From Pseudomonadota bacterium (GTDB taxonomy: Bacteria; Pseudomonadota; Alphaproteobacteria; UBA1280; RI-95), in the NCBI GenBank assembly GCA_016125375.1, contig WGLU01000003.1:165880-229879 (forward strand): a stretch of 64,000 bases of DNA, given 5' to 3'. Each line of letters opens with the position of its first letter. Position 1 is the first letter of the stretch. Below the pieces are notes generated by a model. The model ran no database searches, was not told the origin of the DNA, and saw only the letters and a program-made list of their open reading frames with translations. This document shows positions 18,438 to 30,624 of this stretch, piece after piece. Made by a program: the position numbers and the translations under genes.

Positions 18438-18983
18438 ATGGCTGAAGAAAATCAAGAATCAACAGGCGAAGCCGCTGGTGGTAAAAAATCCAACAAAATG
18501 CTGATTATCGTCATTGTGGCGGTGTTGTTGATTGGTGGCGCGGGTGCAGGTGGTTTCTTTTTCCTGACCAGTGCCAAGAAGGCAGAAGAGCATGCCGGTG
18601 AAGAGGCTGCCGCAGGTGGCCACGAGGCTGCTCCCGCTGCGGGCGGGCACAATGCTGCCGGGGGTGTTGCACCCAATCAGACCGTGTTTTACGAGCTGCC
18701 AGAGATGACGGTTAACCTGTCGTCCCAAGGCAAGACTGGCCGCTATCTGCGTCTGAAGGTGAATCTGGAGCTGGCACGTCCGGGTGATGTGGAGGCTGTC
18801 GAACGCGTATTGCCACGTATCGTGGACGACTTTCAGGTTTACCTGCGCGAGTTGCGCGCTGAGGACCTGAAGGGCTCTGCAGGCATGTATCGCCTTAAAG
18901 AAGCATTGCTTTTGCGTGCCAATCAGGCTGCTCAGCCGGTCGAGATTAACAGTGTGCTGTTTAAAGAGATGCTGGTTCAGTAG
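18438..18983 (+). CDS. fliL: Flagellar basal-body-associated protein FliL
   Basis: 181-residue stator-associated protein: a membrane segment near residues 21-45, an Ala/His/Glu-rich linker, then the periplasmic FliL domain (FYELPEMTVNLSSQGKTGRY, YLRLKVNLEL) ending in INSVLFKEMLVQ. AAGGA precedes ATG. Confidence 0.94.
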   Translation: MAEENQESTGEAAGGKKSNKMLIIVIVAVLLIGGAGAGGFFFLTSAKKAEEHAGEEAAAGGHEAAPAAGGHNAAGGVAPNQTVFYELPEMTVNLSSQGKTGRYLRLKVNLELARPGDVEAVERVLPRIVDDFQVYLRELRAEDLKGSAGMYRLKEALLLRANQAAQPVEINSVLFKEMLVQ

Positions 18984-19005
18984 CCGGACCACAGCTTCCG
19001 TTAAA

Positions 19006-19031
19006 AAAGCCCCCGCATTGCGGGGGCTTTG
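19006..19031 (+). terminator. Terminator after fliL
   Basis: Stem AAAGCCCCCGC / GCGGGGGCTTT with a very small loop, followed by T-rich sequence. It separates fliL from the fliM operon. Confidence 0.85.
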
Positions 19032-19115
19032 TTGCCTTTGTCGTGATGTGCATGGTATGCTGTAAAGTGCACAGGTATATTGTGCGTTAAAAACAATAAA
19101 AATGCGGTTTGGTGA

Positions 19116-20228
19116 ATGTCCGAAGAAGCCCAGAAACAGCAGGCTGCCAGCCCCGGTGCGGAAGAAGCTCCCAAGAGTGAAGAGGAGCTGCTTGACGATT
19201 GGCTGAATATGGCCGCCGAACAGGGGGAAGAAGAGGCTGGCCCTGTCGATGACCGTATTCTGGACCAGAACGAGATTGACTCGCTCCTTGGTCTGGACAC
19301 AGGCGGAGAGGATGAAGGTCCGGGCGGCATTCGTGCCCTGTTGGACAACAGCGTCATCAGTTACGAACGCCTGCCTCTGCTGGAAGTTATTTTTGACCGC
19401 TTCGAGCGCCTGGTATCGACCAGCCTGCGCCAGTTTACAGCGGATAACGTCGACATCAGCATCGATAACATCACCTCCGTGCGGTTTGGTGAATACCTGA
19501 ATAACGTGCCGCTCCCCGCCGGTCTGGTTGTGGTGAATGCAGTTGGTCTGGACGACTACGTGCTGGTGGTTTACGAGAGCCGCCTGATTTACGCTGTGGT
19601 GGATATTCTGCTTGGCGGCCGTAAGGCCCGCCCTGCAAAAATTGAGGGGCGTCAGTTCACCACCATTGAACGCCGTATGGTGGAAGACCTTTCCGAAGTT
19701 ATTCTGGGCGACCTTGCCCGTGCATTCGAGCCGGTCGCACCTATCAAATTTGTTTACGAGCGGATGGAAGTAAACCCCCGCTTTGCGGCAGTCAGCCGTG
19801 AAGGTAACGCCGCTGTACTGATTACGGTGCGCGTGAACTTGGAAGAGCGCGAAGGCGTGATTCAGTTCTGCATGCCTTACGCCACACTGGAGCCTATCCG
19901 TGACCAGCTGCTGCAATCGTTTATGGGCGAGAAGTTCGGCCACGATAACATTTGGGAAAACCACCTTTCCCAAGAGCTGTACCACACAAACATACAAATG
20001 CGCGCCGTTGTGGATGAGGTGACGTATTCCCTGAACGACGTGCTGACATGGCGCTTGGGCGACACCATCATGCTCAACGCCAAAAAGAGCACATCTATCA
20101 AAATGAAATGCGGCAGCCGCGTCAAACTCATCGGTAAAATGGGTAAGGCGGACGATAAAATGGCTGTCAAAATCACCCATACAATTTCCGACATTAACAA
20201 CGCACAGGAAGGGGGAGAGGACGTATGA
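19116..20228 (+). CDS. fliM: Flagellar motor switch protein FliM
   Basis: 370-residue C-ring protein. The CheY-binding motif ILDQNEIDSLLG lies near residue 48, later than usual because the protein has an acidic N-terminal extension that itself holds LLDDWLNMAAEQ, similar to N-terminal motifs of FliN. The CheC-like middle domain and the C-terminal SpoA domain (LRLGDTIMLNAKK-like region) follow. Its stop overlaps the next start (ATGA). Confidence 0.95.
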   Translation: MSEEAQKQQAASPGAEEAPKSEEELLDDWLNMAAEQGEEEAGPVDDRILDQNEIDSLLGLDTGGEDEGPGGIRALLDNSVISYERLPLLEVIFDRFERLVSTSLRQFTADNVDISIDNITSVRFGEYLNNVPLPAGLVVVNAVGLDDYVLVVYESRLIYAVVDILLGGRKARPAKIEGRQFTTIERRMVEDLSEVILGDLARAFEPVAPIKFVYERMEVNPRFAAVSREGNAAVLITVRVNLEEREGVIQFCMPYATLEPIRDQLLQSFMGEKFGHDNIWENHLSQELYHTNIQMRAVVDEVTYSLNDVLTWRLGDTIMLNAKKSTSIKMKCGSRVKLIGKMGKADDKMAVKITHTISDINNAQEGGEDV

Positions 20229-21613: not shown

Positions 21614-22000
21614 ATGTCAGTTGATAAGAACATGCGTGTTCTGGTGGTTGACGATTTTCAGACGATGCGTCGGATTATCATTAACCTGTTGCGCCAGCTC
21701 GGTTTTAACAATGTAACCGAAGCACAGGACGGCAGGGCAGCGCTGGAGCGTGTGCGTGCAGAAAAAATCGACCTGATTATCTCTGACTGGAACATGCCGA
21801 ACATGACCGGCATCGACTTCCTGAAGGAAGTTCGCAAGGATGCCGCTCTTAAAGGGATTCCCTTCATTATGGTGACGGCAGAAGGTAAAAAAGAGAACGT
21901 CATCGCTGCTGTTCAGGCGGGCGTGAACAATTACATCGTCAAACCTTTCAACGCTGCAACGTTGAAAGAGAAGATGACCAAAGTCATTGGCGAGTTTTAA
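21614..22000 (+). CDS. cheY: Chemotaxis response regulator CheY
   Basis: 128-residue single receiver domain. Acidic pair DD near residues 13-14, phosphoacceptor Asp58 (ISDWNMPNMTG), Thr near 88 (VTAEG) and Lys110 (IVKPF) are all intact. It should bind FliM/FliN and change rotation. A GGGGGA site precedes ATG; cheZ follows after 17 nt. Confidence 0.95.
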   Translation: MSVDKNMRVLVVDDFQTMRRIIINLLRQLGFNNVTEAQDGRAALERVRAEKIDLIISDWNMPNMTGIDFLKEVRKDAALKGIPFIMVTAEGKKENVIAAVQAGVNNYIVKPFNAATLKEKMTKVIGEF

Positions 22001-22017
22001 GAAAGGACACCCGCACA

Positions 22018-22728
22018 ATGACGGAACAAGCCGCATTGACACGTAACGCTGTTCTTGAACAGCTGGAGAAGCTGGAAAAATCAGGTGTTGAACATGTGCC
22101 CATCGAGCACGTACGGGCGCTGGTAAACCTGATTCGTGATTTCTTCGAGGGGAACGATGCTCCCGCAACAGCGCGCTTTGACGAGGAGCTGTACGGCGAG
22201 CTTGGCCATCTGGCACGCTTTATCAATGATGCGCAAAAGCACCTGAGCGAGCTGGCGCCGGGCGACCTTCAGGAAGAAAAACTGCCTGAAGCCTCTGACC
22301 AGCTGGATGCCATTGTCAAAATGACCGAGCAGGCAACCGGACGGATTATGGACTCCTGCGAACAGGTCGAAGGTCTGCTCACAGGTCTGCGCGAGCGTGT
22401 CCGGGAGTCGGGTATGGACCCTGATACCCTTGCCGGTATAGAAAGCACGGTGGACGATATTTCTGCTTATATGACAGGTATTTACGAGGCATGTAACTTC
22501 CAGGACGTGACGGGCCAGCGAATCATGAAAGTGGTTGACGTCATGCGCGAAATTGAGCGCCAGGTCCTGCGCATGGTTATTGTGTTCGGCCTGCGCAAGC
22601 AGAACAAAGTGGATGAGAAAAAGCGTCAGGAAATCACAAAAGACGCTGAACTCCTCAATGGCCCGCAGTTGGAAGGCAAGGGGCTCGCACAGGACGATAT
22701 CGACGATATTCTTGATGCGCTTCTGTAG
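22018..22728 (+). CDS. cheZ: CheY-P phosphatase CheZ
   Basis: 236-residue helical phosphatase. The active-site strip NFQDVTGQRIMKVVDVM places Asp163 and Gln167 where the catalytic Asp/Gln pair lies in E. coli CheZ. The C-terminus (QDDIDDILDALL) resembles the CheY-binding tail. CheZ is less common in alphaproteobacteria than CheY-sink systems, so this is a useful lineage hint. Confidence 0.93.
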   Translation: MTEQAALTRNAVLEQLEKLEKSGVEHVPIEHVRALVNLIRDFFEGNDAPATARFDEELYGELGHLARFINDAQKHLSELAPGDLQEEKLPEASDQLDAIVKMTEQATGRIMDSCEQVEGLLTGLRERVRESGMDPDTLAGIESTVDDISAYMTGIYEACNFQDVTGQRIMKVVDVMREIERQVLRMVIVFGLRKQNKVDEKKRQEITKDAELLNGPQLEGKGLAQDDIDDILDALL

Positions 22729-22746: not shown

Positions 22747-23865
22747 ATGATGAGCGACCGCAAAGTACGGGTACTGATTGTTGATGACTCCGCATTTATG
22801 CGGAACGTGCTGACGCGCATGATCGAGAGCAATCCGCAGTTCGAGATTGTCGGCAAGGCCGTGAACGGTCGGGAGGCAATTGAAATGGTTGCACAGCTCA
22901 AACCCGATGTGGTGACTATGGATATCGAAATGCCGGAAATGAATGGCTTGCAGGCTTTGCAGTACATCATGTCCAGCACGCCTACGCCGGTTGTCATGGT
23001 ATCCAGCCTGACAGAATCGGGTACGGAGGCAACCCTTAAGGCGCTGGAACTGGGTGCGGTGGATTTTATTCCCAAGGCACTTAACGACGCTGAAAAAAAC
23101 ATTTTCCGAAGCGCGGGGAATGTACATAGCCGTCTCCTGACAGCTGCCGCGGCAAAAGTTTCTGCCCGGGCGGGCAGCAATGCGGCTGTGCAGGTGCCTC
23201 AGCAGCAGGCGGTGCGCAAGGACTCTCAACCGGCGGCTCCGGCGCCGACCCCGCGGGCAACACCACAACCTGCCAGCAGGCCCCAACGATTTGAACGGGC
23301 GAAGATATTGTTGATTGGCTCCAGTACGGGCGGTCCCCGTGCGTTACAGGATGTTCTCTCCGGTCTGCCAGGCAACCTGCGTGTCCCTGTCGTGGTTGTG
23401 CAGCATATGCCGGCCAGTTTTACAGGCCCTATGGCCAACCGCCTGAATGACCTTTGTCCCCTTCATGTTGAAGAGGTAAAAGACGGCACGTTGATTCAGT
23501 CTGGGCACATCTACGTTTGTCCCGGCGGTATGCAGGCACGTGTTCAAAAAACTGACAAAGGACTGATGGTCAAAGTTCAGCCGGATGAAGGTGAGTCACT
23601 TTTCAAACCGTCTGTCGAGGTGATGGGTCAGTCGGTTGCCGATGCGCTTGGCGGTGATGTTCTGGCGGTGATGCTGACAGGTATGGGTAGTGACGGGAAC
23701 AAGGCTTTCAAGCGTTTGCGCGATGCGGGTGCCTATGTCATTGCACAGGATCAGGCAACGTCAGTTGTTTACGGGATGCCGAAGGCGGTCGTCGACAATG
23801 GTGCCGCCCATGAAGCATTACCACTTGGCGATATTGCTGCGGTGATATCGAAGCTGTTAAGCTAA
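22747..23865 (+). CDS. cheB: Chemotaxis methylesterase CheB
   Basis: 372-residue protein-glutamate methylesterase/deamidase. N-terminal receiver with phosphoacceptor Asp59 (TMDIEMPEMNG), a Pro/Ala-rich linker (about 135-180), then the esterase with the serine of GSSTGGP, the His of VQHMP and the Asp of LTGMGSDG forming the triad. No CheR or receptor gene is visible in the window. Confidence 0.95.
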   Translation: MMSDRKVRVLIVDDSAFMRNVLTRMIESNPQFEIVGKAVNGREAIEMVAQLKPDVVTMDIEMPEMNGLQALQYIMSSTPTPVVMVSSLTESGTEATLKALELGAVDFIPKALNDAEKNIFRSAGNVHSRLLTAAAAKVSARAGSNAAVQVPQQQAVRKDSQPAAPAPTPRATPQPASRPQRFERAKILLIGSSTGGPRALQDVLSGLPGNLRVPVVVVQHMPASFTGPMANRLNDLCPLHVEEVKDGTLIQSGHIYVCPGGMQARVQKTDKGLMVKVQPDEGESLFKPSVEVMGQSVADALGGDVLAVMLTGMGSDGNKAFKRLRDAGAYVIAQDQATSVVYGMPKAVVDNGAAHEALPLGDIAAVISKLLS

Positions 23866-23895: not shown

Positions 23896-26199
23896 ATGGC
23901 CATGGACGGCATGGGAATGGAGCAAGAAGAGCTACAGGCGATTCTTGAAGAGTTCTATACCGAAGCAGAAGAAGGCCTGGATAATCTGGAGCAGGACCTT
24001 ATCCGTCTTGAAGCACTGGCGGACAGTGGCGAGACAGACGGCGAAACAGTCGACCGGCTGTTCCGGAACCTGCATACTCTTAAGGGTGGCGCAGGCTTTC
24101 TGGGTCTTGAACGTATTGCCAAACTCGCACACGCTGGCGAAAACCTTCTGGATGAGGTGCGTGGCGGTAAGGTTGGCGTGAACAAGCGTGTAATGGACGC
24201 GCTGCTGCAAACCAACGACGCTCTGAAAGAGTTGTTGGACCTGTATCAGAACCATGGCGATGTGGCGACAGTCGAAACTGCCCACCTGGTTGAAGAGTTG
24301 GAACTGTTGGCAACCGCCGGTGCCGTTAAAGACCTGCCCAAGCAAGCTGTTACTCCCGCTGAGAAACAACAGACACAGATTGTGGCGCCCAAAGCTGCCG
24401 CCCCTGCTGAAACAGTTGAGGTAGAAATTAACCAGGACCTGTTGAACGAGGTCATGGGTGACCCGACGCTCGACCCTTCCCGTGACAAAGGGGAAGATGG
24501 TGAGGGCCCTGCCGCCCCTGCGGTCGAAATCAATCAGGATCTGCTTAAAGAAGTCATGGGTGACCCGACGCTCGACCCCTCCCGCGACAAGGGCGAGGAT
24601 GGCGAAGCTGCTCCTGCTGCCGCTCCCGCGGTCGAAATCAATCAGGATCTGCTTAAAGAAGTCATGGGTGACCCGACGCTCGACCCCTCCCGCGACAAGG
24701 GTGAGGATGGTGAGGCTGCTGCCGCCCCTGCGGTCGAAATCAATCAGGACCTGCTTAAAGAGGTCATGGGTGACCCGACACTCGACCCCTCCCGCGACAA
24801 GGGCGAGGATGGCGAAGCCGCACCTGCTGCTGCCAAGCAGGAGGAAGAGGAGATTGTCATCACCCGTGAGAATGTGACCCCTATGGAGCGCCGGGATAAA
24901 TCCGAGCGCCGGGAAGGCAAGGCGGAGCGTCGCGAGCTGCCGCGCCGTCAGGCCGATACACGGGATACGACCATCCGTGTGGAAACAGGCCGTCTGGACG
25001 AGGTGATGAACCTCGTTGGCGAGCTGGTGCTGGCACGTAACAGCCTTGTGCGCCAGTTGCGCAAACCCGAAACCATGGAGCAGCTCGAAAATCTTGAGCA
25101 TGCGGGCATCATTCACGCAAACGTGGACATGCTTTCCCGCGTGACGCAGGATCTGCAAATGTCGGTTCTGCGTACCCGGATGCAACCGGTGAAGAAGGTT
25201 TTTGACAAGATTCCCCGTCAGGTCCGTGAGTTGAAGACAAAGCTGGGCAAAGAGGTTGACCTGATTATTGAAGGTGAGATGACAGAGGTGGACAAGTCGC
25301 TGGTCGAAGAACTCTCCGACCCGATGGTGCACCTTATCCGTAACGCCATGGACCACGGGGTCGAAAAGCCGGCCGTTCGCCGCGAATTGGGTAAAAACCC
25401 CGAGGCTAAACTTTACGTCCGCGCCTTCTACGAAGGGAACAACGTTGTTATTCAGGTGGCAGAGGATGGTGCCGGGGTTGACCCCATTTTCATCCGCAAG
25501 AAGGCAATTGAAAAAGGCCTGATTGATCAGGAAACCGCCGATAATATGAGCGACCGCGAGGCCGTACGCCTGATTATGATGGCGGGTTTCTCCACCGCTG
25601 CGCAAATCAGCGACGTGTCGGGCCGTGGGGTCGGCATGGATGTGGTGAATGACAAAATTCAGGCCCTGAAAGGCAGCATCGACATCCAGAGCAAGGTAGG
25701 TGAGGGAACGACCTTCTCCATTTATCTGCCGCTGACGCTGGCTATTATTCAGGCGCTGGTGGTCGAAGCCGGACATGAGGGATATGCCATCCCCATTAGC
25801 ACGATTACCGAGGTCTTCAAATTCGAGCCTAAAGCCGTGCACGAGGTGAACGGGCAGGAGGTTGTCGAGCTGCGGGGCGAGGTGCTGCCGCTGTTTTATC
25901 TGGGACGTCTGTCCCGTAAGGCTGCGGATCAGATATCCTCCCGCAAGTTGGCACCCTTGGCGGGCAAGTCCCGCAACGTCATTGTTGTGCGAGACGGTGG
26001 CCTGAATATGGGCCTGATTGTAGATGACCTGCTGGGGCAGGAAGAGGCTGTGGTCAAACCTATCACCAGCATGTTCGAGTATCACCCCGCTATTTCCGGC
26101 GCCACAATCACGGGCGACGGCCATGTACACATGATTCTGGATGTGGCATTCTTGATGCGTGAGATTTACAAAACGCAGGGCGGCAAATCCGTCGCCTGA
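23896..26199 (+). CDS. cheA: Chemotaxis histidine kinase CheA with four internal repeats
   Basis: 767 residues. P1 with phospho-His60 (NLHTLKGGAGF), a short linker, then four near-identical repeats of about 34 residues (176-313) in the place of the P2 CheY-binding domain, a basic stretch, P3 dimerisation (DEVMNLVGELVLARNSL), the P4 ATPase (N box NAMDHGV; G boxes EDGAGVD and GRGVGMDVV), and the P5 CheW-like domain. The call is firm; the repeat insertion is unusual. No cheW follows; the next gene is motB-like. Confidence 0.95.
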   Translation: MAMDGMGMEQEELQAILEEFYTEAEEGLDNLEQDLIRLEALADSGETDGETVDRLFRNLHTLKGGAGFLGLERIAKLAHAGENLLDEVRGGKVGVNKRVMDALLQTNDALKELLDLYQNHGDVATVETAHLVEELELLATAGAVKDLPKQAVTPAEKQQTQIVAPKAAAPAETVEVEINQDLLNEVMGDPTLDPSRDKGEDGEGPAAPAVEINQDLLKEVMGDPTLDPSRDKGEDGEAAPAAAPAVEINQDLLKEVMGDPTLDPSRDKGEDGEAAAAPAVEINQDLLKEVMGDPTLDPSRDKGEDGEAAPAAAKQEEEEIVITRENVTPMERRDKSERREGKAERRELPRRQADTRDTTIRVETGRLDEVMNLVGELVLARNSLVRQLRKPETMEQLENLEHAGIIHANVDMLSRVTQDLQMSVLRTRMQPVKKVFDKIPRQVRELKTKLGKEVDLIIEGEMTEVDKSLVEELSDPMVHLIRNAMDHGVEKPAVRRELGKNPEAKLYVRAFYEGNNVVIQVAEDGAGVDPIFIRKKAIEKGLIDQETADNMSDREAVRLIMMAGFSTAAQISDVSGRGVGMDVVNDKIQALKGSIDIQSKVGEGTTFSIYLPLTLAIIQALVVEAGHEGYAIPISTITEVFKFEPKAVHEVNGQEVVELRGEVLPLFYLGRLSRKAADQISSRKLAPLAGKSRNVIVVRDGGLNMGLIVDDLLGQEEAVVKPITSMFEYHPAISGATITGDGHVHMILDVAFLMREIYKTQGGKSVA
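24421..24834 (+). repeat. Four tandem repeats within cheA
   Basis: Four in-frame units starting at 24421, 24523, 24631 and 24733 (102, 108, 102 and about 102 nt). Each encodes VEINQDLLxEVMGDP then TLDPSRDKGEDGE and a short Ala/Pro spacer. Units 2 to 4 are almost identical at the DNA level, pointing to recent duplication; unit 1 is a little diverged (synonymous changes and N for K). Confidence 0.95.
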
Positions 26200-26216
26200 C
26201 AGCAGGGGCGGAGTTT

Positions 26217-26921
26217 TTGAGCGACGGTTTCGAGACACAGCAGCAACAGCCTCAAGAGGGTGGCGCCCCGGGTATCGTCGTGCTCATGCTGGGCCTGTAT
26301 CTGATTATTCTGGCCTTCTTTATTCTGCTTAACGCCATTTCCTCATTCGACGAAGAACGTAAGAAAAAAGCCAGCGAGAGTGTGGCCGTAGGCTTCGGGT
26401 ACGAGGCTGATACCGTCCCGATGGATGACAAGGAAGAAGAAATCAGCCTGTTCAAGATTTACGAGTCTATTGCCCGTGACGTGCAGGGTACGCTGGAAAG
26501 CTATCTGCCGGTCAAAGACTATAAAATCGAACTGCATGACAATCAGGTGATTGTCCGCCTGTCCACACCGTCGTTTTTCGAGCCGGGTAAATACTCCCTT
26601 AACCCTGTGCAGGTCGAGTTTTTTCAGGATATGGCAAATCTGCTTTCCCAGGAACGTATTGGCATGCATCTGACCAGTGATCTGGTGGTCAAAGGCACGC
26701 TACAGGATCTGGCACCCGACAGCACCATCAGCGTCATGGAGCTTGCAGGACGCAGGGCTGCTATTTTTGCCCGTGCCCTGATGGAGCGCGGTGTCCTGCC
26801 AGTCACAACGTCGGCCGGAGCAATTGAGGACACCAAGCAGGAAATGATTTTGTATATCAACGTGGAACTGGTCAATGCCAAGGCTGCGGCCACCGCTTTA
26901 AGCAGACAGAACACCCGATAA
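26217..26921 (+). CDS. MotB-like paralogue lacking the ion-binding Asp
   Basis: 234 residues, TTG start (GGGG about 8 nt upstream, no nearby ATG). It shares with the following MotB an N-terminal GGAP, one membrane segment (about 18-42) and a C-terminal region with OmpA/MotB-like spacing (ELAGRRAAIFARALMERGV). The segment MLGLYLIILAFFILL has no Asp where MotB has FADL, so it cannot conduct ions in the standard way. It may be a stator-associated structural protein. It follows cheA by 17 nt. Confidence 0.7.
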   Translation: MSDGFETQQQQPQEGGAPGIVVLMLGLYLIILAFFILLNAISSFDEERKKKASESVAVGFGYEADTVPMDDKEEEISLFKIYESIARDVQGTLESYLPVKDYKIELHDNQVIVRLSTPSFFEPGKYSLNPVQVEFFQDMANLLSQERIGMHLTSDLVVKGTLQDLAPDSTISVMELAGRRAAIFARALMERGVLPVTTSAGAIEDTKQEMILYINVELVNAKAAATALSRQNTR

Positions 26922-26963: not shown

Positions 26964-27677
26964 ATGGCCGAAGAAGAACAACCCATACAAGGCGGCGCTC
27001 CCAGCAGCGCATGGATGCTTACATTTGCAGACCTTATCAGTCTGCTTATCACCTTTTTTGTGATGCTCTATGCCATGAAAAGTGTGGATAGCGACCGCTG
27101 GGAAGACATTAAGGGCGCGCTGTCCGGTGCGTTGAACTTTACCGACAATCTTCTGCGCTTTGACCAGAAGACCGAAGACAAGTCAGTTGATGAGCTGGTT
27201 CTGAAAGAGGCCGATAACCTCGACTACCTGCAAACGCTGCTGCAAACCCAGTTTGCTTATGACCCCGTCCTGAAAACAGCCGAGATGGTGCGTAATCCTA
27301 CGCTGGAAACTCTTACGCTCGTGATGCCGAACCACCTGCTTTTCTCCTCCGGCGCGGCGGATATTCTGCCGCAGGGGAAAACGGCTCTGCTGAAAATGGG
27401 GGAGGTGCTGCGTAATCTGGACAACCAGATCGAGGTAGCCGGCCATACCGACCCCGTGCCTGTCGCCTCCGCTTCTTATCCGACCAATTGGGAGCTGTCG
27501 ATTATGCGTGCGCTGAATGTGACGCAGATTCTCCATGAGGCGGGCGTGACCGAACATATTGTTTCGCGTGGATATGGCGAGAGCCGTTACAACGATGTAG
27601 ACCCCAACCTGCCGCAGGCAGAACGTCTGCAAAAGGCTCGCCGTGTCGAAATCATCCTCAAGTTCAAGTCGGAATAA
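26964..27677 (+). CDS. motB: Flagellar stator protein MotB
   Basis: 237 residues. The single membrane segment carries the ion-binding Asp23 in MLTFADLISLLITFF. The C-terminal OmpA-like peptidoglycan-binding domain shows VAGHTDPVPV, LSIMRALNVTQIL and GYGESR. An open frame extends to a TTG at 26931; I prefer the ATG at 26964, though its ribosome site is weak. It should pair with MotA at 7785-8549. Confidence 0.9.
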   Translation: MAEEEQPIQGGAPSSAWMLTFADLISLLITFFVMLYAMKSVDSDRWEDIKGALSGALNFTDNLLRFDQKTEDKSVDELVLKEADNLDYLQTLLQTQFAYDPVLKTAEMVRNPTLETLTLVMPNHLLFSSGAADILPQGKTALLKMGEVLRNLDNQIEVAGHTDPVPVASASYPTNWELSIMRALNVTQILHEAGVTEHIVSRGYGESRYNDVDPNLPQAERLQKARRVEIILKFKSE

Positions 27678-27681
27678 TCCC

Positions 27682-30624
27682 ATGCGACGCCTTGCTGGTA
27701 AACTCTGGATGGCGAGCCTGCTGTTGGCAGCACCGCAAGCCTACGCGCTTGATGTGATGCTCAAAGAAGCCGGAGACGCCGTTGTGCTGGAAGTGCCGTC
27801 CGAAGGCAAGGGGCTAGCAATTTTTCGCCGTTTTGACGACCTATGGCTGGTTAGCAGCACTGCCGGTGATCCCATTCGCCTGCTGGCAGACGAGGCCCTG
27901 AGCAAAAAAGCGGGCCTGCGCAAGACAGAAGCACTGCAAGTAACGGGCGGTAGCGGCCTGCGTCTGAGCTTTGGCAAGCTGACAGGTGCTGCCCTCGCTA
28001 CAGATGGTAAAACATACACTGTCGGTCTGGGACAACCGGACGCAGGCGCTGCAGACACGTTGGCACTGGGTGATGCACAGGGCGGCGCACTGGCAAATTC
28101 TGCCGGTGTCGAAAGCTTTGTCCGTGCCACCAGTATGGAAACCCGGGAGTCCTACGCCACCGTAACCGTCAAAACGCCGGAATCCACCCGTGCCGAACGC
28201 GTTGTCGGGGGAGTTCTGGCGTTGCCCACATTGCTGGGCGGTGCCTTTGTTTCTGCCGAGGGGGTGCCACTGGGTGGCGAGAAAACCGCGACAGGTGTTA
28301 CGCTTAAGCCCATGCAGGATGCCTCCTCGGTAGCAACCGCCCGCGCCAACCGCCGCCAGGTGGATGCCAATTTTGTGAATACACTGCTGAACGAAATGAG
28401 TCCGCAGCCCGAACATCAGCAGCAACATACCGCTGCGGCAACACCGGCGCAAAAACGCCAGCCCAGTGAGCCCACTTTTCAGGCGCGTCCGGTTACAGGC
28501 AAGTTTGCCAATGCCTATGACAGTCTGAACCAGGCACTGCAGGCGATTGAACGCATTGATGGCAAAGCGGCTGCGCTCAAACCCGGTCCACGCGTCTCTG
28601 ACCAGACCGTTCCGAATGTGGCGGAAAAACTTCCTACGTTACACGGACTTGGCACTGTCCCTATCGAGTCCGGTGATGTCACGGATCTTTCCGGCATCAA
28701 ACCCGGGGAGGAAAGTGCCCGTCTGACCATGCCCCATAGCGGGCATGAACCGGCAGAGCATGGCGCACAGGACAGTTCTACCACTGAGCCCGCTGTCCAC
28801 CCAACGGCTACTGCTGCGGCACAACCTGTCACCTATGATGGGCCGGTGGCCTTGGCTGAGAACACGTTTTTGCCTAATTTTGGTGACCGCGGCTTCAAGG
28901 AGTACTATCAGCTCGAGCAGCGTTTCCGTAAGCGGATTATGGACGAAGCCAATGCGGACGAGCAGCTGAAGGCTCGTACCCGTTTGGCCAAGTTGATGTT
29001 CTATAACAACCGCTTCTACGAAACGCTGGGTATGCTCAAAACCATGCCGCAGGACCCCAAACTCAAACTGCCGCGTGATCGTGATGCCCGTCTGCTTTAC
29101 GGTGCCACGCTTGTGCGATTGGGCCGTCCGGCCGACGCGCTGGAGGTTTTTGCAACCGATGACGCCCCCAGCAATGACCGTCTGGTATGGGAAGGCGCAG
29201 CTTACAGCGGGGTAGGAGACTACGAGAAAGCTGCCGGTATTTTTGACGAGCACATCGACTATACCAAGCAATACCCCAAACATATTCAGCAGCATCTGCG
29301 TTACGACTATGCAGTTGCGCTATTCAATCTCCAGCGCTATGGCAAAATGAGCGACCAGATAGACGCTCTGGCAGCCCTTGGCGGCAACGACGATGTGCTG
29401 GCCTATGCCCAGCTCCTGCTGGCCCGTACCTATGTGTTGCGCAATCAGGATGTGATTGCCGAGCAGATTCTGGTCAATCTGGCCAACCACAATAACCAGA
29501 TCGTTGCCAACCACGCACTGCTGGAATACATCAACCTGTTGCTCAAACGGGGGGACATCAGCCCCGAGCAGGCCATCATGCACTACGAGAATCTGCGCTA
29601 CATCTGGCGTGGGGATGATGTGGAAAAAGAAAGCCTGTTCCGTCTTGGTCAGCTGTATCTGGATGAAGAACGCCCTCGTGAAGGGCTGGAAACACTGAAG
29701 TACCTGACGGTGGTGTTTCCGGGTGAGCCACGTTCGGAAGAGGCGACCAAAATCATGGTGGATGCCTTTACAGATTTGTACCTGAAAGGCATTGCGGATA
29801 AGGTCCTGCCACCGCTGGATATCTTGGGCGTGTATTACGACTTCCGCGAGCTGACGCCGCCGGGTGATAAGGGTGATGGAGTCGTTGCCAATATTGTCGA
29901 CCGTCTGGCCCGCATTGAGTTGTACGAACGGGCTATCGAGCTGCTGGAAGGCCAGTTGAAGTACCGTATCAAAGACCCTGTGGCCAAGGCACGGGCAGGC
30001 GCTATGCTGGCGAATCTGTACTTCCTCCATTACGATGCGGATGCAGGCCTTAAGGCGTTGGAGCGTACCGAGGCGTCCGACCTGCCGGAAGACATTGCCA
30101 ACCGGCGTGTTGAGGTGAAGGCTAAACTCCTGAGTCTGGCAGGCGACCATGCAGGGGCTTTGGAACTTGCCAAAACACTGCCCGCCAGTAAGGACATGGA
30201 TTATCTGCGCGCGGAGCTGGCTTTCCGTATTCCGGATTATCCGTCAGTTGTAACCTTTACCAAACCTCACCTGATGGATAAGCGACTGGCCTGGTGGCAA
30301 CATGAGGATGCGATGGCTTTCGAGCGGCTGGCACTTGCCCTGAGTGTTGAAGGTGATGCGACGGATCTGGAAGATTTGCAGGAGCGCTACGCTGATAATA
30401 TTGCCGAGCTGGATATGGTTAACGAGGTGAACTTCCTCACACAGAATGCAGGCTCCGTTAAAATGCCGGTACCGATTAAGGGCGAGCTGTCGGGCCGTCA
30501 CAAAATCTGGAACAGCCTGTACAGCCAGGTGGCCAAATACAACCAGTTTGCCGAGAAGTATCAGGAGGTCCTCCGTGCCCGTGCGCAGGATAAGATGCTC
30601 CCTGACCCGACAATGCAGAGATAA
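27682..30624 (+). CDS. Large secreted TPR-like protein, motB-linked
   Basis: 980 residues. A signal peptide (MRRLAGKLW to about PQAYA) is followed by a beta-rich N-terminal part (about 25-200), a low-complexity His/Gln/Pro linker (about 230-390), and from about 395 to the end helical repeats of TPR type (DARLLYGATLVRLGRPADALE, ESLFRLGQLYLDEERPREGL). It starts 4 nt after motB and ends at a bidirectional terminator, so it belongs to the chemotaxis/motor operon. Not a named protein to me; probably a periplasmic scaffold of the motor (inference). Confidence 0.75.
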   Translation: MRRLAGKLWMASLLLAAPQAYALDVMLKEAGDAVVLEVPSEGKGLAIFRRFDDLWLVSSTAGDPIRLLADEALSKKAGLRKTEALQVTGGSGLRLSFGKLTGAALATDGKTYTVGLGQPDAGAADTLALGDAQGGALANSAGVESFVRATSMETRESYATVTVKTPESTRAERVVGGVLALPTLLGGAFVSAEGVPLGGEKTATGVTLKPMQDASSVATARANRRQVDANFVNTLLNEMSPQPEHQQQHTAAATPAQKRQPSEPTFQARPVTGKFANAYDSLNQALQAIERIDGKAAALKPGPRVSDQTVPNVAEKLPTLHGLGTVPIESGDVTDLSGIKPGEESARLTMPHSGHEPAEHGAQDSSTTEPAVHPTATAAAQPVTYDGPVALAENTFLPNFGDRGFKEYYQLEQRFRKRIMDEANADEQLKARTRLAKLMFYNNRFYETLGMLKTMPQDPKLKLPRDRDARLLYGATLVRLGRPADALEVFATDDAPSNDRLVWEGAAYSGVGDYEKAAGIFDEHIDYTKQYPKHIQQHLRYDYAVALFNLQRYGKMSDQIDALAALGGNDDVLAYAQLLLARTYVLRNQDVIAEQILVNLANHNNQIVANHALLEYINLLLKRGDISPEQAIMHYENLRYIWRGDDVEKESLFRLGQLYLDEERPREGLETLKYLTVVFPGEPRSEEATKIMVDAFTDLYLKGIADKVLPPLDILGVYYDFRELTPPGDKGDGVVANIVDRLARIELYERAIELLEGQLKYRIKDPVAKARAGAMLANLYFLHYDADAGLKALERTEASDLPEDIANRRVEVKAKLLSLAGDHAGALELAKTLPASKDMDYLRAELAFRIPDYPSVVTFTKPHLMDKRLAWWQHEDAMAFERLALALSVEGDATDLEDLQERYADNIAELDMVNEVNFLTQNAGSVKMPVPIKGELSGRHKIWNSLYSQVAKYNQFAEKYQEVLRARAQDKMLPDPTMQR

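Follow-up and report, generated by a model that had tools for sequence, protein, structure and literature searches.

A tandem array of short motifs in the P1-P3 linker of a flagellar-cluster CheA lacking P2

The window analyzed here, a stretch of 64,000 nucleotides, encodes a CheA kinase (CheA1) in which four near-identical units lie between the Hpt (P1) and dimerization (P3) domains, the usual place of P2. This locus raises the question of whether such repeats are an accident of replication slippage or a selected feature and, if selected, which function they may serve in a kinase where P2 is not recognized.

Four units in the place of P2

The features of CheA1 are as follows:

23896..26199, forward strand: cheA1, P2-less CheA of 767 aa (Pfam Hpt, H-kinase_dim, HATPase_c, CheW)
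23941..24228, forward strand: Hpt (P1) domain, aa 16-111 (PF01627, E 4.6e-16)
24421..24504, forward strand: repeat copy 1, aa 176-203, VEINQDLLNEVMGDPTLDPSRDKGEDGE (profile E 2.1e-13)
24523..24606, forward strand: repeat copy 2, aa 210-237 (profile E 3.8e-14)
24631..24714, forward strand: repeat copy 3, aa 246-273 (profile E 3.8e-14)
24733..24816, forward strand: repeat copy 4, aa 280-307 (profile E 3.8e-14)
24967..25173, forward strand: dimerization (P3) domain H-kinase_dim, aa 358-426 (PF02895)
25318..25737, forward strand: HATPase_c (P4) domain, aa 475-614 (PF02518)
25750..26160, forward strand: CheW-like (P5) domain, aa 619-755 (PF01584)

The core domains Hpt, H-kinase_dim, HATPase_c, and CheW occur in CheA order, all above the Pfam cut-offs, and this layout, together with sequence comparison, confirms a preliminary description that placed four near-identical units where P2 would be. 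The unit, VEINQDLL[N/K]EVMGDPTLDPSRDKGEDGE, occurs exactly four times in the open reading frame. The same description gave it 34 residues; the four copies stand, whereas the unit comprises 28 conserved residues on a period of 34-36, with starts 34, 36, and 34 residues apart and Ala/Pro-rich spacers. The only residue that differs among the four units is at position 184, which is N in copy 1 and K in copies 2-4. Among copies 2-4, 3-6 of 84 nucleotides differ, all of them synonymously; compared with copy 1, these three have 13-15 nucleotide differences, and 11-13 of the 12-14 codons affected are synonymous. Since the four units are so similar, and since related units occur in 23 other genomes, the repeats are not due to chance.

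The P2 models PF07194 and PF09078 gave no match in CheA1, even at E<=10, and no P2 fold was found by Pfam elsewhere in the protein, which bears out the earlier statement that P2 is not recognizable. We compared matched Hpt-P3 segments from CheA1 orthologues and from CheA2-type proteins of the class: none of the eight orthologue segments matched a P2 model at E<=1, whereas five of the ten CheA2-type segments matched the CheY-binding model PF09078, weakly and below Pfam cut-off strength (best E 0.0098). The Pfam comparison was used because profile searches against the PDB missed P2 in the CheA2-type segment as well and, having no power, were given no weight. The CheA1 linker contains no compact alpha/beta domain of ~70-100 residues and instead consists of the repeats and Ala/Pro/acidic spacers, in which AF2 placed, at low confidence, isolated short helices only. 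The second CheA of the same genome (L002, G000:C9), which has its own CheY-like ORF (37% identical to CheY1) and a CheW in the vicinity, has no repeats and keeps a P2-like segment, which indicates that the absence of P2 is specific to the flagellar-cluster CheA.

Two further observations concern cheA itself. Several relatives (L004, L005, L009) have a low-complexity insertion inside the P5 region that is nearly absent from the CheA of the window. Long minus-strand open frames lie opposite cheA (768 aa, 23932-26238) and opposite the fliL-fliM region (573 aa, 18459-20180), and are probably a codon-usage effect rather than genes.

Distribution, copy number, and selection in two orders

A CheA linker bearing the array, with two to five copies, was found in all 24 genomes of two sister orders (the genome of the window and 23 relatives). 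Orthologous CheA proteins are present in 6/6 genomes of the window's order and 17/18 of the sister order, each with the repeat in the same linker; the 18th sister-order genome (G105) has a CheA fragment with two units that ends at a contig edge. A genome-wide peptide scan for relatives recovered only one distant CheA, and whole-genome searches with a profile of 25 columns, built from 23 genomes, were used instead. In the window's own genome (G000, 1.98 Mb), the profile gave four matches, all in CheA, and nothing outside CheA at E<=10. It matched all 18 sister-order genomes, with only weak, chance-level matches outside CheA. Among 385 sampled genomes of the class, the matches were clade members and two weak ones in frames of 34-39 aa; among 398 of the phylum, the only clear match was in the window's own genome, with three partial ones (E 0.003-0.009). 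These samples thus contain no convincing copy of the motif outside the two orders. No description of such CheA repeats was found in the open-access literature, a coverage outside which most subscription journals lie.

Copy number, which the preliminary description expected to vary between strains, is not fixed across relatives, and neither is the sequence. Complete linkers contain four copies in G000, G003, G087, G097, and G098, three in G005, G101, G096, G100, G103, G104, G106, and G110, and two in G099, G109, and also G108, with one degenerate copy. G002 has four copies and a shorter fifth, and G107 has one copy and two degenerate ones. The number differs even inside genera, with four versus three copies in the pairs G003/G005 and G087/G101 and three versus two in G110/G109. 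Contigs end in or beside the cheA repeats in G001 (C199), G004 (C117), G111 (C143), and G105 (C159), whose counts are lower bounds, which suggests that short-read assemblies break at the array. As the source of the array itself, an assembly artefact is ruled out by its presence in independent assemblies of many species.

Over the 25 columns, mean identity is 0.79 within genomes versus 0.42 between genomes. In many genomes (e.g. G000, G003, G005, G002, G096, G100, and G102) the copies are closest to those of the same genome, a sign of homogenization in several lineages, whereas in others (e.g. G097/G098 and G109/G110) they are closer to copies of the neighbor species. The type of motif tail (DPSRDK vs D.RL.G) does not track the two orders, in a weakly resolved tree, so we do not read it as two separate origins.

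The motif shared across the clade is [VI][ND]x[DE]LL[AD][ES][VI]xxDxxL, and its 15-residue core has the consensus [VI]-[ND]-x-[DE]-L-L-[AD]-[ES]-[VI]-x-[NAG]-D-x-x-L. Leu5 and Leu15 are found in 60/60 copies and Asp12 in 58/60, an invariance of the three positions that is partly by construction, given that the search pattern required some of them; profile searches confirmed the motif independently of that pattern. By the Nei-Gojobori method, pN is lower than pS among the core copies of each of the 19 genomes with two or more copies, and the pooled pN/pS is 0.15 (in G000, pS 0.336 and pN 0.029). The copies thus differ mostly by synonymous changes, which shows strong purifying selection on the amino-acid motif. 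Synonymous divergence among copies reaches 0.9, indicating that many of them are old. The preliminary description had regarded copies 2-4 as recently duplicated; this fits those copies of CheA1 only, since the copies of several relatives differ by 0.5-0.9 synonymous changes per site, and an array common to two orders is itself old. The array is a selected motif array and an ancient feature, not a recent slippage accident.

Single-sequence AF2 of the full CheA was uninformative (pLDDT 37, linker almost all coil). For the array (aa 168-314), it predicted four short helices at residues 180-186, 214-221, 250-256, and 284-290 (pLDDT ~55), each covering the QDLLxEV core immediately after the Asn, and nearly all coil elsewhere; the confidence is low and the result is the same in every copy. 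The helix of the unit is thus weakly predicted. Purifying selection, the small predicted helix, the invariant Leu, the near-invariant Asp, and the disordered spacers all agree with the suggestion, made at the outset, that EINQDLL..EVM may be a short linear motif. A calcium-binding or dockerin-like reading of DPSRDKGEDGE was ruled out, because this segment is not conserved in half of the clade. A selected array of short, putatively helical motifs, variable in number, does indeed stand in the place of P2 throughout the clade.

Candidate partners and resemblance to CheY-binding peptides

The window also encodes the candidate partners of the array and two proteins with peptides to which the motif can be compared:

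19116..20228, forward strand: fliM (PF02154, PF01052)
19176-19208, forward strand: FliM N1 motif SEEELLDDWLN, aa 21-31 (conserved in relatives)
19260-19292, forward strand: FliM N2, classic CheY-binding motif LDQNEIDSLLG, aa 49-59 (conserved in relatives)
21614..22000, forward strand: cheY1, presumed main docking partner (PF00072; alignment to PDB CheY chains)
22018..22728, forward strand: cheZ (PF04344), with C-terminal peptide LAQDDIDDILDALL (conserved in relatives)
22747..23865, forward strand: cheB, receiver and methylesterase, second candidate partner (PF01339, PF00072)

In alignments to PDB chains, CheY1 follows E. coli-type CheY very closely across alpha4-beta5-alpha5, the face of CheY that binds FliM and CheZ (PMC3774744). 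The CheA motif aligns without gaps to LDQNEIDSLLG and SEEELLDDWLN of FliM and to LAQDDIDDILD of CheZ, and among the 12,736 11-mers encoded in the window, FliM N1 ranks in the top 0.09% by motif score, FliM N2 in the top 0.23%, and the CheZ C-terminus in the top 0.36%. Scores as high are also reached by ordinary helices in folded proteins, and column permutation gave p values of 0.11 for FliM N2, 0.14 for the CheZ C-terminus, and 0.024 for FliM N1. The joint p was 0.077 for FliM N2 and CheZ, and 0.014 with FliM N1, which was noticed only afterwards.

The consensus against which FliM- and CheZ-type CheY-binding peptides are judged is L-[SND]-Q-x-[ED]-I-[DE]-x-[LI]-L. The N-terminal CheY-binding peptide of FliM (LSQ/LNQDEIDSLLG type) likewise lies in a disordered segment as a short amphipathic helix with an N-cap, and its hydrophobic positions 1, 6, 9, and partly 10 align ungapped with the CheA1 motif, an alignment that is not significant by column permutation. 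It has Glu at position 5, whereas the CheA1 motif has Leu5, occurs in tandem copies, and conserves Asp12 and Leu15; all three of these residues are missing from the FliM and CheZ peptides. The C-terminal peptide of CheZ (LxQDDIDDIL), encoded in the same operon, is of the same amphipathic kind and binds the same CheY face as FliM (PMC3774744), but it occurs once, at the terminus, and its sequence resemblance is loose. The permutation control led us to downgrade an identification of the motif as a FliM-type CheY-binding peptide and to retain the likeness as a suggestive lead.

Other features were observed around the motor genes. In FliM of the clade (L103-L122), the CheY-binding motif is preceded by another conserved N-terminal motif, K[ST]EEELLxEWxNMA, and a related motif, AEWxxMA, is found in other FliM proteins of the class, at times twice or more in tandem. 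FliM of class members carries RILNQDEIDSLLG, the FliM peptide reported for Caulobacter (PMC5677366), which makes Alphaproteobacteria the probable class. A 993-aa protein encoded directly after two MotB-like genes (27643-30624) has no Pfam match.

Possible functions of the array

The position of the array matches that of P2, which argues for the role of P2, in line with the multivalent CheY/CheB docking suggested at the outset. P2 (PF07194, PF09078) shares the place between P1 and P3 and the role proposed here, which is to concentrate CheY/CheB close to the phosphohistidine; it is a folded domain, whereas CheA1 has short motif repeats in a disordered linker without a Pfam match. We give a probability of about 55% to the array being a multivalent linear docking site that would do the job of P2, keeping CheY1 and/or CheB close to the phosphohistidine domain. 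In the ancestor shared by these two small-genome, probably alphaproteobacterial orders, the P1-P3 linker of the flagellar-cluster CheA would have gained a short linear motif instead of P2, which then would have multiplied to two to five copies. Each unit may form an N-capped amphipathic helix (N/D cap, x-[DE]-L-L-x-[ES]-[VI]) that leads into a D-x-x-L turn, hanging on a flexible acidic/Ala-Pro tether. The units would act as repeated docking sites capturing a receiver domain, with CheY1 the likeliest and that of CheB a possible target, and would raise its local concentration beside the P1 phosphohistidine, as P2 does elsewhere; multivalency would presumably be the benefit. More than one docking unit per CheA is also found in Borreliales, where P2 is duplicated (PMC10782961), although these are folded domains and not short tandem motifs. 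A substitute for P2 is not strictly required, since P2 is missing from over half of the known CheA proteins, whose linker has been described as unstructured (2023 survey, PMC10782961).

A partner other than CheY or CheB is conceivable. Docking to a polar or motor organizer (MinD-like FlhG, FlhF, or a ParP-like tether), which would keep the CheA array by the polar flagellum, is consistent with FlhF and a MinD-like ATPase, presumably FlhG, being encoded in the window beside flhA. FlhG can bind the EIDAL motif of FliM, which also counts in favor of such docking. A further parallel is the LID of Vibrio CheA, another lineage-restricted extra segment, likened here by description, which binds ParP for polar localization (PMC5706961). 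The genome of the window, however, encodes only four CheW-type domains (PF01584), in two CheAs and two short CheW ORFs, and the search found no long ParP-like protein; with no long CheW-domain protein besides the CheAs, ParP-type localization is less likely. In contrast to the motif, which is confined to two orders, FlhF and FlhG are found widely. We consider an organizer as the partner unlikely, with FlhF and the MinD-like protein as the possible candidates.

It is quite improbable that the array is an entropic spacer tethering P1 at a useful distance, with repeats arising from replication slippage and binding nothing specifically. The Ala/Pro/acid-rich spacers of variable length, the variable copy number, and the near identity of copies 2-4 at the DNA level would fit; a core pN/pS of 0.15, below 1 in 19/19 genomes, and a Leu and Asp kept invariant and near-invariant across two orders would not, and where CheA of other class members lacks P2 (L145, L146), its Ala/Pro linker is featureless. 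Equally doubtful is an intramolecular element, with helices folding back on P1, P4, or P5 of CheA or on CheW to regulate kinase activity. Confinement of the motif to CheA, and its conservation with this CheA type, are what self-interaction also predicts, but a variable number of near-identical copies is more easily explained by recruitment of a mobile partner, and no packing appears in the single-sequence model, whose confidence is too low for exclusion.

Returning to the docking of CheY1 or CheB, we tentatively entertain a more specific form, possible yet short of even odds, in which a whole clade has exchanged the folded P2 for a tandem array, variable in number, of CheY-binding helices like those of FliM and CheZ. 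A single face of CheY would then be met by one kind of peptide from the kinase, the phosphatase, and the motor switch alike. If so, copy number would set the amount of CheY held at the array and the strength of competition between kinase and motor, and similar motifs may hide in the "unstructured" linkers of some of the >50% of CheAs without P2. As a conserved, repeated motif under strong selection, the array bears on how P2-less kinases recruit CheY efficiently. The unit is a short peptide, e.g. VEINQDLLKEVMGDPTLDPSRDKGEDGE, that can be synthesized and tested directly against CheY and CheB, and the natural series of two to five copies makes multivalency in kinase-regulator docking testable.
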